A stretch of DNA of 7,267 nt from Candidatus Poribacteria bacterium (GTDB lineage: Bacteria > Poribacteria > DTPJ01 > WJIO01), in NCBI GenBank assembly GCA_014730235.1, contig WJIO01000118.1:1-7267 (forward strand), given 5' to 3'. Positions 1 to 7,267 of this stretch are shown one piece after another. Numbering within the stretch: position 1 is the stretch's first letter; each line of letters begins with the position of its first letter. A program made the position numbers and the translations under genes. Under the pieces are notes generated by a model, which had not been told where the DNA came from, did no database searches, and worked only from the letters and a program-made list of their open reading frames with translations.

Positions 1-2319
1 TAGTTCTTCTATAATATTAAATAACCTTTTTTGATCACTGATTAATAATTTCTCGATATGTGAGATATCAATATCAGGTCTCATTCTAAGCGGATGCATC
101 GCTTCTTTTATACATTCAATTACCTTTTTTTTCACTTCTATATGATTTGAATTAATAGACTTTCTCAGTAAATCAATAGCTCTTTTTCGAAGTTCAGCTA
201 CTTGAGGTGTATATTTTAGAATGTGCCAAGAAATATTAATTTTTCCACTTTCGAAAATAGTTTCAGATATCTCAAGTATGAATAATGATTTTACAGCTTC
301 TAGCATAGGTATACTAAGCCTGGGATCATCTATATTTGCCCAAATATCAAATTTATCTAAAGCCTTAAATTGAAATGTTAAGGATTTACTTGTTTTAAAA
401 CTGATCATATCTTTTAATAGTTCTATTGCCGGTTCTGGGTATATAGATTTTCTATTATTGGGAAGAAGCTTTTGAATTATATCTATGGTTTCAACAAAAC
501 CTTCTAATGTAAATGTAGTCTTTCTTGCTTCTTCTATTATTTTTCTTATTAAATCTTTATGGGCTATTGTCCTTTGTCCTAGAAGAGAAGAATCAATTAT
601 TGATTCTTCTGTCTTTGGATTATTGATTATCATATTGAATATATCAATAGCATCACTTGACCGATAATAACATAATCCCTCGATTGAAAGAAGAATATTG
701 TATCTTATTGAATTATTTCCTTCTAAAACATTTCTCTTAATTTCAGAAACAAATATGTCAAGTAAAGTTTTCTGATCTATCATGGATTCAATTTTGGCTA
801 AATTCTTGATCACATTATCTGGAGCAAATCTTAGGAACTTATTCAAAAGCTCATCATGGAATCCATGTAAACATTCGCTTCTGAGTATATAATCTGATAG
901 CTGGTCAGGAAAAATTCTAAGCTTTTTGCTTCTTTTAACAACAAATCCATAATCAATTAAATCACTCAGAACTTTGTTTACTTCATATTTTTTGATATTC
1001 AATACTTCGGCCAGTTGGTTAATAATATACTCGTTATCTTCTTCAATTGGCTCAATACCACTGAGCCAATTTAACATATCTCTATGTTTTGTGTTTCTTA
1101 TTGTTAATTTGGTGTTAAATATATCTCTAATATAAGATTCAAATACGTGATCTATAAGCTTATCACCAGTTAATTCCTTTAAATCTTTTTTCTGACTATA
1201 ATAATCAATTATCATTACTGCTATCAAAGGTGTATCTCTTGCTATTCTCGCTAAACTTGACAATATTGATTCATTATTTATTACTGAATATTTGGATATT
1301 AACTCTTTTGTTTTATCTCTTGAAAGACTTGATAGTCTTAGTTCTCTAATTGCCTGAGAGGGAAATCTATATATGAAATTATCTTCTATGAATTTCTTGA
1401 AAGGTTCTCTTGTTATTAGAATTACTTTGGAATTCTGGTAATTTTTATCGTCTAATATTGCTGCAAGACTGCCAAAATGACCATAAAATTCATGTGCATT
1501 ATCTATAAAAAATAAATAATCTTTATTGGGCGGTATATAATAAAAAGAATCTTCAAAATTTTGGACACTTTCTCTTATAAATAAAGGTTCTATTTCTTTT
1601 TCTTGTTCTATTCTTTTAGCCAAATCTATTGAAAGTTTTGTTTTACCAATCCCTCCTGTTCCATATAGTATCATTATACGGCTATTTGCATCATTTATAA
1701 ATGACCATAATTCCTCCATTTCTTTCTCTCTACCTATAGTCTTATAATCATATCTTAGAAGTTTATGCTTACCTTTGATTTGACTCTTGAACAATTCATC
1801 CCAAGAAAAGAATACTTTTCTATCAATAGGGAGAAAAGAAGTCATAATATACGGAAATTTTTCCACCATAGAATTTAGATCTGCTTGATCCCAGCAAAAT
1901 AAATTAAATTTATATCCTTTTTCTTCTTTTGCTTTCTGGAGTTTGTCATAATTGCCTTTGGTAAGACTAATATTTGTTAAAAGGACATAGTAATCACAGC
2001 CTAATTCATATGCTTTGTCAATTTCACCTTTTTTTCTTTTGGTACCAATAACTGTATTGAGAAAGTTTCTTCTCTTTTTCATATTATCCATTGTTGGATC
2101 AGAGTATTTATATTGGAAAATCCAGTATCCATTTTCGTAATTACCTTTATATTCATATGCTCCACTATATTCAGCATCGGTTCCTTTATCTCTACCTGAA
2201 GCAGAATAAACCTTAACTAAGCGGGATATTTCTGTTTTCAAAAAGATATTGCAAAACCGCTCAAAATCTTTTTCTGATTTTATGTAGTCTAAATATCCTT
2301 CATTTTCCTTGCTCTGCAT
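1..2319 (-). CDS. STAND NTPase with N-terminal restriction-endonuclease-like domain (Avs-like defence protein), 3' end outside the window
   Basis: The frame is open for 773 codons from the ATG at 2317-2319 to the left edge, with no stop. Residues about 14-155 resemble the Mrr/PD-(D/E)xK nuclease fold: GTDAEY (candidate catalytic D48), then WIFQYKY (Q69-x-K71), then a YYVLLTN strand (111-117) and a CWDQADL segment (142-148). Next come GRE (196-198) and a STAND ATPase core: P-loop GTGGIGKT (220-227), Walker B LFFID (269-273) followed by NAHE, a sensor-like VILITRE (299-305), and TPL (363-365), matching the GxP region of NB-ARC-type ATPases. About 434-470 looks like a winged helix. The rest is helical and may be HEAT- or TPR-like. 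By family logic the C-terminus senses a phage product, the ATPase oligomerises, and the nuclease cuts DNA; this role is inferred. The only in-frame ATG before the upstream stop at 2356-2358 was taken as start. The gene is much more AT-rich than its neighbours. It could instead be another nuclease-STAND family of unknown trigger. Confidence 0.85.
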   Translation of the reverse strand, partial: MQSKENEGYLDYIKSEKDFERFCNIFLKTEISRLVKVYSASGRDKGTDAEYSGAYEYKGNYENGYWIFQYKYSDPTMDNMKKRRNFLNTVIGTKRKKGEIDKAYELGCDYYVLLTNISLTKGNYDKLQKAKEEKGYKFNLFCWDQADLNSMVEKFPYIMTSFLPIDRKVFFSWDELFKSQIKGKHKLLRYDYKTIGREKEMEELWSFINDANSRIMILYGTGGIGKTKLSIDLAKRIEQEKEIEPLFIRESVQNFEDSFYYIPPNKDYLFFIDNAHEFYGHFGSLAAILDDKNYQNSKVILITREPFKKFIEDNFIYRFPSQAIRELRLSSLSRDKTKELISKYSVINNESILSSLARIARDTPLIAVMIIDYYSQKKDLKELTGDKLIDHVFESYIRDIFNTKLTIRNTKHRDMLNWLSGIEPIEEDNEYIINQLAEVLNIKKYEVNKVLSDLIDYGFVVKRSKKLRIFPDQLSDYILRSECLHGFHDELLNKFLRFAPDNVIKNLAKIESMIDQKTLLDIFVSEIKRNVLEGNNSIRYNILLSIEGLCYYRSSDAIDIFNMIINNPKTEESIIDSSLLGQRTIAHKDLIRKIIEEARKTTFTLEGFVETIDIIQKLLPNNRKSIYPEPAIELLKDMISFKTSKSLTFQFKALDKFDIWANIDDPRLSIPMLEAVKSLFILEISETIFESGKINISWHILKYTPQVAELRKRAIDLLRKSINSNHIEVKKKVIECIKEAMHPLRMRPDIDISHIEKLLISDQKRLFNIIEEL
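586..610. repeat. Perfect 12-base inverted repeat inside the STAND gene
   Basis: AGAAGAATCAAT (586-597) is followed by a single T (598) and its exact reverse complement ATTGATTCTTCT (599-610). It lies in coding sequence for about residues 571-579 (EESIIDSS region). The match ends at 585/611. It could form a cruciform in DNA or a hairpin in RNA, or be chance in AT-rich sequence. There is no T-run after it on the coding strand, so it is not a standard terminator. Confidence 0.7.
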
Positions 2320-2441: not shown

Positions 2442-5408
2442 TTAAGCCTGCGCCAACTTCTCATAAGCCTGCTCAAACATCATTGCCAATAATGCTGCCT
2501 TAACCTCTTTTCCATCATTTATTCGTCTGTAAAAATCGAAATGTTCCTTATACATATCGTCAAGCACATCATCAAAAAGATGCCCAAACGTCATTTTTAC
2601 TTTCTGTTTGCTGTTTACCTTAGCGCTGGTTTTAAGTGATGGATTGGATTCCATCCTTGACTGCATCTGCTGGATTATTACTTTATCACTATCAGAGAAA
2701 TCAGTCCCAAACCTGTCGTTTATATCCTCTATTATCTTTGACAGTATTTCTTTATCCTTCTTATCTGTCAGCTTGGTACCCACATCAGATATTGGTTGAA
2801 GTTCACCTTCACCTTTATCCAGATTGATCCCATCATCGCTGATAAGCTGTATTCTGTATGAGTCCATATCAACCTGATCCATAACCTCAACAGGAAGTCT
2901 GTCTTTTTCTATTGGGAGCTTTCTGATTAGCATCCTTCCAAAGACATAGAGTTTTTCGAGACCAGGATCTTTGAATGGAATAATCTGCGACAGGAAAGCA
3001 TAAAGCCTGATATAGGACCTGAGCAGTTTTTTAAATTCCTCTTTTTTCTCATTTGTTAATTTAACAAATCGTTCTGCAACTTCGTTAAGTATAGGATTAA
3101 GCCTGTCCTGCTTTACTCTTCTGTCAAAGTAAAGTTTGGCAAAAGCTTCTATATCTTCATTTGAGTATACATAGAAATCAGATAACTGCAACTGAATATC
3201 ATAGAGTTTATTAGGATCAGTTCCCTCGCTTAGAAGTGTGGTTCCGTAATAATCGGAAAATGCCTGCTCAATTTCATCAGCTTCGTTTGCAAAGTCAAGA
3301 ATAATGGGTTCTTCTTTATTTAGATGGATTCTGTTAGAGCGACTGAGTGTCTGGACAGCAGCAACTCCAGAGAGTTTTTTATCAATATACATGGCATAAA
3401 GCAAAGGCTGATCAAAGCCTGTCTGGAATTTATTTGCCACAATCAAAAATTTGTATGACGGCTTTTTATATTCCTCTTTGGTCTGCTTTTCAGAAAAGCC
3501 GTTCATGCCCGGTTCTGTATATTCTATACCGTCATCAGGGTCAACAACAGTTCCAGAGAACGCAGCAAGAGTTTTGAATTTATAGCCTCTTTCCTTGATA
3601 TATTTATCGCATGCGATCTTGAATCTTACTGCATGAAGCCTGGATCTGGTCACTACCATGGCTTTTGCCCGACCGTTTCCGTTCTTGTCTGGAATTTTGT
3701 TTTTCACATTCTCATTATAATGCTCAACAATAATCTCAACCTTTTTCTGAATAGATATTTCATGCAGATCCACAAATGATCTCAATAATCTTGTGGCCTT
3801 TCTCTTATCATATCTGGGATCATCTTCGATTTTTTTCAGCAGGTTGAAGTATGTTTTGTAGGTAGTGTAGTTCTTTAACACATCAAGAATAAAGCCCTCT
3901 TCTATGGCCTGCTTCATGCTGTAGAGGTGAAAGGGAAGATAAGTTCCATCTGGCTGTTTTTCTCCGAAAAGCTCAAATGTTTTGCCCTTAGGTGTGGCAG
4001 TAAAAGCAAAGAAACTAACGTTCTTTTGTCTACCCCGAGCTTCCATTTCCTTGGCGATCTCATCTTCGTATGTCTCTTCTTCTGAATCGGTTGCCTCAGC
4101 ATCTTCCAGGTCTTGGGCTTTCAATACTTTTTTCAGGCTTTTGCTGGTCTCTCCTGACTGGGATGAATGGGCTTCGTCAACTGCAACTGCAAACTTTTTT
4201 CCGGGAAGTTCCTGAATATCCTCAATAATGTATGGGAATTTCTGTAGTGTTGTTACTATTATGTTTTTGCCGTTCTCCAGGGCTTCCTTTAGTTGCCTTG
4301 AGCGTTTATCTATCTTTTTTACCACTCCGTCCACTTGCTCAAACTGCTTGATTGTTTCCTGCAACTGCCTGTCAATTACTCTCCTGTCTGAAACTACAAT
4401 TATTGTGTCAAACACACGTTTATCATTTTTGTCGTGCAAGCCTGCCAGTTGATGGCAAAGCCAAGCAATTGTATTGCTTTTACCGCTTCCTGCGCTGTGC
4501 TGTATGAGGTAATTTCTTCCAGTTCCTGCATTTTGAGAATGGGATATTAGCTTTCTTACAGCGTCAAGCTGATGGTATCTTGGGAATATCTGTATCTGCT
4601 CCCCTGTAGGCATTCCGTTGTCATCAAGAACATCAGCCACATGCACAAAGTGCTGGATGATGTTCATAAAGCTGTCTCTTTGCAGAATTTCTTTCCACAG
4701 GTATTCTGTTTTATAACCATCTGTAGGCGGGTTTCCTGCGCCGTTGTTAAGGCCTTTATTGAATGGAAAGAATCTTGTCTTTGTTCCGTCAAGCTTTGTT
4801 GTCATGTATACCAGGTCTTCATCAACTGCAAAGAAAACCAAACATCGTTTGAAATGAAATAATGGCTCTTTTGGATCACGGTCTTCTTTGTATTGTTTGA
4901 TTGCAGAATTTACATTGTATCCTGAGCCTGAGAGCTTATCTTTTAATTCTATTACTGATATTGGAAGGCCGTTAAGGAATATGACCATATCTACAGATTT
5001 ATTGTTATTTTCGCTGAAATAAACCTGGCGGGTGATGCTTAACAGATTCGCTTTGTATAAGGTTTCAAGGGTTTTGTTAAGTCCGCTTACTGGCTGAAAA
5101 TACGCCAGATCAAAATGGCATCCATAGTCTCTTACCCCTTTGCGGAGAACGTCTAAAGTGCCTCTTTTGTCTATTTCGCTTTTTAGTCTTAAAAGGAATT
5201 TGTCTTTTACCTGTTCACGGTGCTGTTCCTTTAGCTTTTCCCATTCCTCTGGCTGTGTGGCAAAGATAAAGCTCATAACAAGCTCAGGATCCATGCAGAG
5301 CTTTTTGTCATACTGGGAGTGATTTCTTTTCAGGAAGCCTGATTCAGTAAAGAATATTTCGATCTGCTCTTCCATGTTTTGCTCTGATGTTTTGTTTTGT
5401 CTTCCCAT
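2442..5408 (-). CDS. hsdR: Type I restriction enzyme R (motor and nuclease) subunit HsdR
   Basis: HsdR is the DNA translocase and nuclease of the HsdR-HsdM-HsdS complex: at unmethylated target sites it pulls DNA past the bound enzyme using ATP and cuts at a distance. The 988-residue length is normal for the family. The N-terminal PD-(D/E)xK nuclease shows D140 in SVDMVIF and E154-x-K156 in VIELKDK, then AIKQY (169-173). The superfamily 2 motor follows: Walker A HSAGSGKS (304-311), VVSDRRVIDRQ (motif Ia region, about 338-348), DEAH box (411-414), FTATP (469-473), FQTGFDQP (661-668) and QTLSRSNR (686-693). The remaining roughly 290 residues match the helical C-terminal region that contacts the methylase. 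An acidic stretch at about 432-451 lies between motifs II and III. All catalytic motifs look intact. The start is fixed by an AGGTG site five bases upstream. The gene follows the DUF262 gene by 8 bases and is probably translationally coupled to it. Confidence 0.97.
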   Translation of the reverse strand: MGRQNKTSEQNMEEQIEIFFTESGFLKRNHSQYDKKLCMDPELVMSFIFATQPEEWEKLKEQHREQVKDKFLLRLKSEIDKRGTLDVLRKGVRDYGCHFDLAYFQPVSGLNKTLETLYKANLLSITRQVYFSENNNKSVDMVIFLNGLPISVIELKDKLSGSGYNVNSAIKQYKEDRDPKEPLFHFKRCLVFFAVDEDLVYMTTKLDGTKTRFFPFNKGLNNGAGNPPTDGYKTEYLWKEILQRDSFMNIIQHFVHVADVLDDNGMPTGEQIQIFPRYHQLDAVRKLISHSQNAGTGRNYLIQHSAGSGKSNTIAWLCHQLAGLHDKNDKRVFDTIIVVSDRRVIDRQLQETIKQFEQVDGVVKKIDKRSRQLKEALENGKNIIVTTLQKFPYIIEDIQELPGKKFAVAVDEAHSSQSGETSKSLKKVLKAQDLEDAEATDSEEETYEDEIAKEMEARGRQKNVSFFAFTATPKGKTFELFGEKQPDGTYLPFHLYSMKQAIEEGFILDVLKNYTTYKTYFNLLKKIEDDPRYDKRKATRLLRSFVDLHEISIQKKVEIIVEHYNENVKNKIPDKNGNGRAKAMVVTRSRLHAVRFKIACDKYIKERGYKFKTLAAFSGTVVDPDDGIEYTEPGMNGFSEKQTKEEYKKPSYKFLIVANKFQTGFDQPLLYAMYIDKKLSGVAAVQTLSRSNRIHLNKEEPIILDFANEADEIEQAFSDYYGTTLLSEGTDPNKLYDIQLQLSDFYVYSNEDIEAFAKLYFDRRVKQDRLNPILNEVAERFVKLTNEKKEEFKKLLRSYIRLYAFLSQIIPFKDPGLEKLYVFGRMLIRKLPIEKDRLPVEVMDQVDMDSYRIQLISDDGINLDKGEGELQPISDVGTKLTDKKDKEILSKIIEDINDRFGTDFSDSDKVIIQQMQSRMESNPSLKTSAKVNSKQKVKMTFGHLFDDVLDDMYKEHFDFYRRINDGKEVKAALLAMMFEQAYEKLAQA

Positions 5409-5413
5409 TTTCT

Positions 5414-5418
5414 CACCT
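5414..5418 (-). promoter_or_regulatory. Ribosome binding site of hsdR overlapping the upstream stop codon
   Basis: The minus strand reads AGGTG, five bases before the hsdR ATG at 5406-5408. Its AG is also the end of the TAG stop (5417-5419) of the DUF262 gene. A ribosome terminating there covers the hsdR start site, which favours coupled translation. Confidence 0.8.
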
Positions 5419-7213
5419 ACAAAGATTGATAGTATGTTTTGATTTTCTGGGATATTAGCTTTCTTCTTGCTTCCAGAAACTCTTCATAATCCTGGATTTC
5501 CATATTGATTACTGATTCAGGGACGCAATTCATTTTAAGATTTGCTGTCAATTCATCTGTACTATCAATTCCGCCGTATTTCAGCTCTCCTCCGCCGCAT
5601 TGCTCCAGCAATTCCTCAAAATATACTTTAGGCGGTTTCTTGCCTATCTTAATATTTATCTCAGACTGCATATAGACATAGTTTGCTATCTGGTTATATT
5701 GACCCCTTTTCAGCCCATGGGATTTCAGATAATCTCTTGGAAAAATGTGGTGTATATCCCCTCTGTGGGTAATGAGGTCATTAACCGTAATATCTTTAGA
5801 TAAAAAGCCTTTATCATTTGCTTTAACCTGGGCCGCCAGATAGACATTGAAGTATGGACTGCTTGCTACAGAAGTATTAAGGCTTTGTATCAAAGCGGCA
5901 TTCCAGTATGCATCTGAAAGGTCGGCGCTTTCTACATCCCTTAGGAAGCTTCCAAAGTCTCTGTTGGATATGTTTTTAATGTCAAAGTCAAACTGGGATT
6001 CTGACGCTCCTGAGTATCTTCCGGTAAGTATGCTCAGGACAAACCATCTCCTGACGTATTTTTCTATGTCTGCTGGATTATAATTCTGCGATTTTAGTTT
6101 TAGATACAAAATGTATGCAAAATTCAGGGTGTTTTGTGATCTTATCATTCCTGAAGAAATAAATCCTGCTGACCTTATTATCATCAGGAATCTTTTAAAG
6201 CTTGTCTCGTTTATAGCATCCAGTATTCCTTTTTCCAACTGGTCAAATGAATTCTGGGCAATTTCTTCTTCATAGGTTCGGGTTTCAAAATTCCTGCCGG
6301 AAAGAAGGCTTACCAGATCCGCCAATCTTCCTCTGTTAAAGCGATATGTAAATGCAACTCTCAACAGGTCTGCATAACTAGGATCATATAAATCATCATT
6401 TTCATTTTTTAGCCATTCGATCTTTGGGAAGTAATCAGTTTTGGCAAAATCCTTATCACCGTTTTTAATGTGGTCAAAGAATTCAGGGGCAACAACCAGG
6501 TGGCTGAAATAGTCTATTAGTTTTCTCAGGGTTGATCCGCCGTAAGTTTCATTTGAAGCTATCTTTGACATGGCAAAATCTGCCTGGCTTAATGGAACAC
6601 CCTCTGAATTAATCCTGATAAATATTTCTGTTACTGTTTCTATATCCAGTTCTGGCTCTAACTCTATTAACCCTATCTGCTTCTTCATTATCTGCTTGAG
6701 GTTCTCTAACGAAGACCATACTTTCTTTTTATCAGCTTCCGGGTTCCTCTTGTTGTATTCATCAACAAAGTCATATAACATTATTTGGTTATTTATTATT
6801 GGACTTATGTCCTGAATCCATGTAGGATCTCTTGCTATTGCAGTATTGAAGACTTCAAATCTTTCCTCAATAGGATTGAATGCGATCTTGATTCTGATTT
6901 TCTGATATTCCTTGTTAACAACCTCTTTTCCCAGTATGGCTGAGATTAAGGCCATAATTCTTTGCTGGCCGTCAATGAGTATCTTCTTTCCTTCTGATCT
7001 GCTTCCGTCTTTAAGCCTTATATTTGGATTTCGCCATACAATAAGATAACCTATTGGATAGCCCTGATATAATGAGTCCATCAGGTTTCTGACTTTAGTA
7101 GAATCCCAGACAATGGGTCTCTGTATTTCAGGAACTGCTATTTCTCCTGAGTTTACCCAGGCAAGTATAGTTTCTGTGAATTGCTGATTTACTGAGTATT
7201 TTTGCGTTTGCAT
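5417..7213 (-). CDS. DUF262 / GmrSD-like protein with C-terminal HNH-type motif
   Basis: The 598-residue protein has the DUF262 N-terminus: EIQRPIVWD (29-37), then SLYQGYPIG (47-55), then the hallmark ILIDGQQR (78-85), the nucleotide-binding or nucleotidase motif on a ParB/sulfiredoxin-like fold. FIRINSEGVPLSQADF (198-213) is another typical block. The middle is helical. The C-terminus has GDIHHIFPRDYL (485-496), followed by N511 and N520 in the usual spacing and IGKKPP (523-528), an HNH-nuclease-like pattern comparable to the DUF1524/GmrD half. Known relatives (GmrSD, BrxU, SspE) are nucleotide-dependent nucleases that act on modified DNA or partner a modification system. Activity against modified phage DNA here is inference. 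The gene lies between hsdS and hsdR: its ATG overlaps the hsdS stop as TAATG, and a GAGGTG site precedes it. It may be an extra restriction effector expressed with the type I enzyme. An obligate subunit is less likely, since classical type I systems lack it. Confidence 0.93.
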   Translation of the reverse strand: MQTQKYSVNQQFTETILAWVNSGEIAVPEIQRPIVWDSTKVRNLMDSLYQGYPIGYLIVWRNPNIRLKDGSRSEGKKILIDGQQRIMALISAILGKEVVNKEYQKIRIKIAFNPIEERFEVFNTAIARDPTWIQDISPIINNQIMLYDFVDEYNKRNPEADKKKVWSSLENLKQIMKKQIGLIELEPELDIETVTEIFIRINSEGVPLSQADFAMSKIASNETYGGSTLRKLIDYFSHLVVAPEFFDHIKNGDKDFAKTDYFPKIEWLKNENDDLYDPSYADLLRVAFTYRFNRGRLADLVSLLSGRNFETRTYEEEIAQNSFDQLEKGILDAINETSFKRFLMIIRSAGFISSGMIRSQNTLNFAYILYLKLKSQNYNPADIEKYVRRWFVLSILTGRYSGASESQFDFDIKNISNRDFGSFLRDVESADLSDAYWNAALIQSLNTSVASSPYFNVYLAAQVKANDKGFLSKDITVNDLITHRGDIHHIFPRDYLKSHGLKRGQYNQIANYVYMQSEINIKIGKKPPKVYFEELLEQCGGGELKYGGIDSTDELTANLKMNCVPESVINMEIQDYEEFLEARRKLISQKIKTYYQSL

Positions 7214-7267
7214 TAAGCCACCTCGCCGCGGATATCAATTTTCCCTGTGACAGCATGGGATATAAGA
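7213..7267 (-). CDS. hsdS: C-terminal tail of type I specificity subunit HsdS (5' part outside the window)
   Basis: Only the last 17 codons and the TAA stop (7213-7215) are present, encoding LISHAVTGKIDIRGEVA. The block AVTGKIDIR matches the characteristic C-terminal end of many HsdS subunits (AVTGKIDVR-like), which recognise the target sequence and hold the two methylase subunits. The identification rests on this short motif plus its position in the same operon as hsdR, and the two agree. The stop shares one base with the DUF262 start (TAATG). The target recognition domains lie to the right of the window, so no specificity can be inferred. Confidence 0.85.
   Translation of the reverse strand, partial: LISHAVTGKIDIRGEVA
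7219..7224 (-). promoter_or_regulatory. Ribosome binding site of the DUF262 gene
   Basis: The minus strand reads GAGGTG five bases before the ATG at 7211-7213. It lies inside the last codons of hsdS and fixes the start of the DUF262 gene. Confidence 0.8.

Follow-up and report, generated by a model that had tools for sequence, protein, structure and literature searches.

The window, by which we mean the whole 7,267-bp stretch of DNA that was analysed, is the entire contig C35 of a 5.5-Mb assembly in 451 contigs. All of its genes lie on the minus strand and, from left to right, they are a nuclease-STAND gene, hsdR, a GmrSD_N/DUF262 gene and an hsdS-like tail. The hsdR gene (2442–5408), which encodes a type I restriction subunit, was assigned from its matches to PADLOC REase_I (4.8e-38) and to TIGR00348 (1.2e-62), the latter scoring under the curated cut-off of 284.55 bits. 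The GmrSD_N/DUF262 gene (5417–7213; PF03235, 1.7e-31; PADLOC HEC-05, 6.3e-29) is located 8 bp upstream of hsdR, between that gene and the probable hsdS tail, and belongs to the type I operon. The tail (7214–7267) consists of 17 residues, LISHAVTGKIDIRGEVA*, identified by translation only, which we take to resemble the C-terminal ends of HsdS proteins; PF01420 (HsdS) was not found in the assembly and the hsdS assignment depends on these 17 residues. An earlier, sequence-only reading of this DNA placed the STAND gene beside a type I restriction operon. This description holds for hsdR, the GmrSD_N/DUF262 gene and the probable hsdS tail, but hsdM is absent from contig C35. The restriction genes are neighbours that lie outside the two-gene unit described below. 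The 122 bp that separate hsdR from the STAND gene (2320–2441) contain no terminator-like site, and promoter-like sites in them are no more frequent than expected by chance.

The nuclease-STAND gene occupies positions 1–2319 of the minus strand as a single open reading frame of 773 codons, with its ATG at 2319, and is cut by the left end of the contig. It encodes residues 1–773 of a protein of approximately 1,300 residues. The N-terminal region (residues 11–160; 1840–2289) is a PD-(D/E)xK nuclease domain of the Mrr/QxK type, having an α-β-β-β-α-β core with the E…D…QxK pattern. Residues Glu30, Asp44, Asp48, Gln69 and Lys71 are invariant in an alignment of 13 sequences; the codons for Glu30, Asp48, Gln69 and Lys71 are at 2230–2232, 2176–2178, 2113–2115 and 2107–2109, respectively. 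PADLOC matches the candidate model PDC-M58A to residues 16–159 (6.5e-7), and the domain is predicted to carry out metal-dependent DNA cleavage. It is followed by a STAND NTPase core with a winged-helix-like region (residues 190–480; 880–1752). The P-loop (1639–1662; Gly220, Gly222, Gly223, Gly225, Lys226 and Thr227), Walker B motif (1501–1518; Asp273), Thr-Arg pair (1408–1413; Thr303-Arg304) and GLPL-like TPL motif (1225–1233, within the RDTPL sequence of residues 361–365) are invariant in the same alignment, in which identity between the window sequence and the others is no more than 43–47%. As is characteristic of the STAND NTPase superfamily, a single chain contains the P-loop, Walker B motif, Thr-Arg sensor, GLPL-like motif and winged helix, with an effector on one side of them and repeats on the other. 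Pfam matches to the P-loop/STAND region of the window protein are all below the curated cut-offs (ATPase_2, 2e-4; nSTAND3, 4e-4; AAA_16, 9e-4), and nSTAND3 is matched at E ≤ 0.01 in ten of the 13 family members. The remaining residues (480–773; 1–882) form the first half of a helical, HEAT-like region that is a putative sensor. The sequence-only reading had seen no recognisable motif in the C-terminal part; HEAT-like repeats are found there, with HEAT_2 matched in 12 of the 13 members and with HEAT/ARM structural matches. Its description of positions 1–2319 as a single frame joining a PD-(D/E)xK-like N-terminus, a STAND core and a helical C-terminus is borne out by the invariant motifs and by an AlphaFold2 model. 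The window gene is the N-terminal part of a PD-(D/E)xK–STAND–helical-repeat protein.

Sixteen distinct full-length relatives were identified in Candidatus Poribacteria; they are 1,301–1,348 residues in length and 43–48% identical to the window protein. Because the full-length relatives are of this size, the window protein represents approximately 59% of the whole and lacks some 530 residues. Among 58 whole genomes, 12 relatives align with residues 10–772 of the window protein, with identities of 44–48%. A scan of genome contigs with an alignment found 13 poribacterial loci, several of them on the same contigs as the whole-genome matches, together with five distant ones; a scan of the same contigs with a single sequence found no relative. 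The relatives are 55% identical to the window protein in the nuclease domain but 40% identical in the first C-terminal part. Whole-gene dN/dS values for the STAND gene were 0.16–0.25 in nine pairs, and in six of these the value was lowest in the nuclease domain, for which the range was 0.07–0.17. The STAND gene is under purifying selection. Two copies from one assembly (loci L027 and L029, assembly G020) are identical in the middle but only 54–90% identical in stretches at both ends, which suggests recombination, or strain mixing within this assembly.

Outside this family, the distant relatives at loci L048–L052 have an N-terminus without the QxK motif, and no partner gene was seen beside them by eye. 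Relatives on plasmids were found in Aulosira (22% identity over 83% of a full-length relative), Xanthobacter, Rhizobium and haloarchaea; these have the STAND part in common while their N-termini differ. No comparable partner gene was seen beside the plasmid relatives, and a tblastn search of plasmids with the partner was empty. No relative was found in phage records or in IMG/VR. We note that the genome from which the window derives contains a second NLR-like candidate, a CHAT (caspase-like)–STAND–TPR protein of 1,161 residues on contig C173 (L057:581-4066).

An AlphaFold2 model of the window protein was calculated from 14 aligned sequences and has a mean pLDDT of 66.7, being weak in the NTPase and better in the nuclease core and helical C-terminus, where the helices are mostly of high pLDDT. 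In the model, the α-β-β-β-α-β order of the PD-(D/E)xK fold is found at residues 16–115, ahead of the NTPase, and the region after approximately residue 470 is almost wholly composed of helical repeats. The sequence-only reading had proposed that a predicted structure be compared with Avs proteins. Of the 350,542 PDB chains searched with Foldseek, Avs4 bound to a phage portal protein was the best match (E = 1e-9), followed by EfAvs5 (6.9e-6) and by a third match at 2.4e-3; plant NB-ARC and the MspJI endonuclease (E = 0.026, a weak match) were also returned. Alignment with VIA-align superposed model residues 8–518 on residues 3–515 of Avs4 with a Z score of 9.1, although the match is loose, with an r.m.s.d. 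of 17.5 over 274 residues. Residues 500–773 matched HEAT/ARM proteins with Z scores of up to 11. Middling Z scores are commonplace for helical models, and at the level of the predicted structure this match shows a shared helical-repeat arrangement only. The alignment with Avs4 ends near residue 518, and it is the effector and switch that may be described as Avs4-like.

Contig C35 ends at the STAND gene and cannot be extended leftwards, as the sequence-only reading had suggested, but the search for the rest of the protein was successful elsewhere in the assembly. At the start of contig C195 a family-profile search located the C-terminal 246 residues of a STAND protein (E = 6.8e-51), followed with an 8-bp overlap by a gene for a HEPN-like partner (L056:736-1548) that had gone unnoticed earlier. 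Since the assembly contains a single N-terminal and a single C-terminal fragment, we infer that C35 and C195 carry the two ends of one STAND gene, with approximately 280–290 residues between them missing from the assembly. Downstream of the partner, contig C195 contains an open frame of at least 333 residues (L056:2179-3177), for which Pfam gave no convincing match and PADLOC and the plasmid search gave none, and between the two lie short overlapping frames resembling insertion-sequence remains.

The nuclease-STAND gene is the first half of a conserved two-gene unit. In 14 of the 16 relatives a partner gene encoding approximately 275 residues directly follows the STAND gene with an overlap of 1–8 bp; at locus L025 the partner reaches the contig end. 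Two kinds of disrupted partner were observed. At L041 the gene is split into two frames; at L031/L042 an in-frame deletion leaves 22 residues from its N-terminus and 36 from its C-terminus (L031:12831-13010), and the STAND gene retains its open frame. A search of 84 genomes of the phylum detected the partner in 16 (E ≤ 0.001).

The R-x4-H motif is characteristic of HEPN RNases. In the partner, Arg187 and His192 of the sequence RNQLTH are invariant in 14 sequences, which are 28–34% identical to the first of them, and this spacing falls within the R-x4-6-H pattern of HEPN proteins. Pfam matches of the partner to HEPN_Cthe2314 (PF18730; 4e-4) and HEPN_Apea (0.034) are both under the cut-offs; across the partner family, again below the cut-offs, HEPN_Cthe2314 is matched in five of 14 members and HEPN_Apea, weakly, in three of 14. 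At E ≤ 0.01 the only protein matched by PF18730 among 58 poribacterial genomes is the partner copy from the window's genome, and there are no matches in 14 control genomes. The sequences RNNIVH, RNNFTH and RNSYTH occur in three genuine members of PF18730 (from the class to which a Roseburia genome belongs), and these motifs and the RNQLTH of the partner are in register in hhalign comparisons of weak statistical significance (probability 2%, E = 0.025 in one comparison). The AlphaFold model of the partner is poor (pLDDT 48), and a Foldseek search with this low-confidence model returned nothing. We consider it likely that the partner is a HEPN-like protein. We also observed a Cthe_2314-like HEPN gene adjoining a gene for an MspI-type restriction endonuclease (PF09208, 1.8e-68) at L086:267-2088.

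At 11 loci the pair has a Gfo/Idh/MocA oxidoreductase gene on either side and lies on the opposite strand to both. These flanking genes are 4.93–5.11 kb apart where the pair is present alone and up to 9 kb apart where there are extra genes, whereas a gap of 20–124 bp separates them in 15 other genomes, which lack the pair. The pair is a presence/absence unit at one chromosomal site. Mean identities at this shared site are 59.9% for the partner, 75.8% for the STAND protein and 88.5% for a flanking gene, so that the partner evolves fastest. In three of the loci at this site (L034:3800-6289, L044:14786-17119 and L028:13096-15459) the same-strand gene after the partner encodes a WD40 protein whose C-terminal part contains a trypsin-like protease motif (GSSGGP); the L034 protein has an apparent signal peptide, and L027 holds a remnant of this gene. 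Locus L028 also contains a TnpB-like (IS605 OrfB/Cas12f-like) gene beside the STAND gene, inside the same site (L028:6990-8141).

Away from the MocA site, all four of the readable loci have defence neighbours. These are the type I restriction–modification (R-M) genes and GmrSD_N gene in the window, type III Mod and Res at L024, genes homologous by clustering to the L024 Mod and Res at L031, and a CAP12-type TIR gene at L030 (PDC-S35, 2e-64). A type I R-M neighbour was found in the window's genome only. The presence of defence neighbours at all four loci is suggestive of a defence setting, the number of loci being small and no formal background rate being available. The sequence-only reading had named an ordinary regulator C-terminus, with no defence association among homologues, as grounds for abandoning a defence role; the C-terminus is instead HEAT-like and the homologues away from the MocA site have the neighbours listed above.

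In our view, the most consistent interpretation is a poribacterial anti-phage unit of two genes, Avs-like in kind, of which the window carries the front part and in which the HEPN-like partner serves as a second effector or regulator, and we place the probability of this reading at roughly 0.7. In the resting cell the STAND protein of approximately 1,300 residues would be inactive. Binding of a phage product by the C-terminal HEAT-like repeats would lead to ATP-dependent oligomerization through the STAND core, uniting the N-terminal PD-(D/E)xK domains (E…D…QxK), and the paired nuclease domains would then cut DNA and halt the infection. The partner, which is produced from the overlapping gene and retains an intact R-x4-H motif, may most simply be a second (RNase) effector or a subunit gating the effector, switched on by the same oligomer. 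The role in phage defence, the phage-protein trigger, the DNA target and the function of the partner are all inferred. Several observations do not favour this reading: most homologues lie between metabolic (MocA) genes, most of the partner is missing from one genome in which the STAND gene is intact, the HEPN matches are below the Pfam cut-offs and the structural match to Avs4 is loose. More tentatively, the unit could represent a new, two-effector class of bacterial NLR-like defence. One phage-sensing oligomer would then activate its own DNase domains together with a HEPN RNase encoded by a second gene, and the two genes would form a cassette that is gained and lost at one fixed position in the genomes of sponge symbionts.

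It is possible, though doubtful, that the partner acts as an inhibitor or antitoxin, a chaperone or a co-sensor of the STAND protein rather than as an RNase effector, with DNA cleavage as the sole effector activity. The sub-threshold HEPN matches, the poor AlphaFold model and the empty fold search are compatible with such a regulatory partner, and its fast evolution is as expected for a specificity factor, but the invariance of the R-x4-H motif, as in HEPN RNases, is not readily accommodated, and an obligatory antitoxin is difficult to reconcile with the intact STAND gene found beside an internally deleted partner in one genome. A further alternative invokes the neighbouring genes. PrrC is a HEPN protein that is frequent in R-M operons (PMC3710099), and the unit might guard the adjacent restriction system as PrrC does with EcoprrI, sensing a block of the type I enzyme by phage and killing the cell. 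In the window, a spacer of 122 bp that lacks any terminator-like site separates the STAND gene from hsdR upstream of it, and two other loci adjoin type III R-M genes, but the type of R-M varies from locus to locus and the 11 loci at the metabolic site have no R-M genes between their flanks. Because the pair occurs without R-M genes, these are not required, and we consider a guardian function improbable.

The location of most copies among oxidoreductase genes, in sponge-associated bacteria, could also be taken to indicate a STAND signalling protein of development, symbiosis or stress with a vestigial nuclease domain. However, the nuclease residues are invariant, dN/dS in that domain is low, and the unit is present or absent at one site and has defence neighbours elsewhere; since the nuclease site has been kept, a non-defence role of this kind appears very improbable.

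Avs proteins are the bacterial counterparts of the NLR immune receptors of animals and plants. If the unit works as proposed, it would add to them a nuclease-STAND family whose repeats are HEAT-like, and an NLR-like sensor coupled to a second, RNA-targeting effector gene. It would also be a defence system of Poribacteria, uncultured sponge symbionts on whose interactions with phages we found little in the literature. A gene context would also be gained for Cthe_2314-like HEPN proteins, for which a 2013 survey of HEPN proteins gives none (PMC3710099). The partner resembles that family in its sub-threshold match to PF18730 and in its motif, although the relationship is remote. Searches of an open-access library gave no description of a HEPN partner of such a sensor, which is not proof of absence. 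Avs1 systems have partner genes, such as a protease-activated nuclease (PMC12799240), and an extra effector gene therefore has a precedent.

Avs systems have a tripartite effector–STAND–repeat layout, and Avs1–4 cut DNA on recognizing conserved phage proteins, among them those of packaging; terminase, portal, Ksap1 and JADA are listed as triggers of Avs systems (PMC12931631). The window protein has the layout of Avs types 1–5, and the designation of an Avs-like nuclease-STAND sensor made by the sequence-only reading is supported at the level of architecture by the top structural match to Avs4 and by the defence neighbours outside the MocA site. This architecture does not by itself place the protein in one of the five Avs sequence families: the C-terminus is HEAT-like, the alignment with Avs4 ends near residue 518 and, in PADLOC, no model named Avs or AVAST was matched at E ≤ 0.1 by the window protein or its relatives, or at 0.01 by any member. 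Avs4 (AVAST type 4; PDB entry 8dgf) likewise has a PD-(D/E)xK-type nuclease at its N-terminus and a STAND NTPase after it, an arrangement colinear with residues 8–518, and is the best structural match in the PDB. It differs in that the HEAT-like C-terminus does not align with it, and a sequence-based PDB profile search did not list it. A HEPN-like partner gene is conserved here, whereas we know of no partner gene for Avs4. Avs5 (SIR2–STAND; PDB entry 9jap), the second-best structural match, shares an nSTAND3-type NTPase, as reported for PaAvs5 (PMC12931631) and matched below the cut-off in the window protein, but its effector is a SIR2 NADase where that of the window protein is a nuclease. The PADLOC candidates PDC-M58A, covering the nuclease domain of the window protein, and PDC-S73, covering the nuclease and P-loop in relatives (1.5e-9), are uncharacterized and match only in part, and the second gene matched no HEPN-like PADLOC partner model. 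In some relatives residues 901–1167, within the C-terminal region, weakly match Olokun OloA (3.6e-8), which leaves the nuclease-STAND part unmatched, and the match probably reflects shared helical repeats only. The Avs-type effector–STAND–repeat design is already known, and what this analysis adds is that the gene belongs with a HEPN-like partner, encoded outside the window, to a presence/absence unit.
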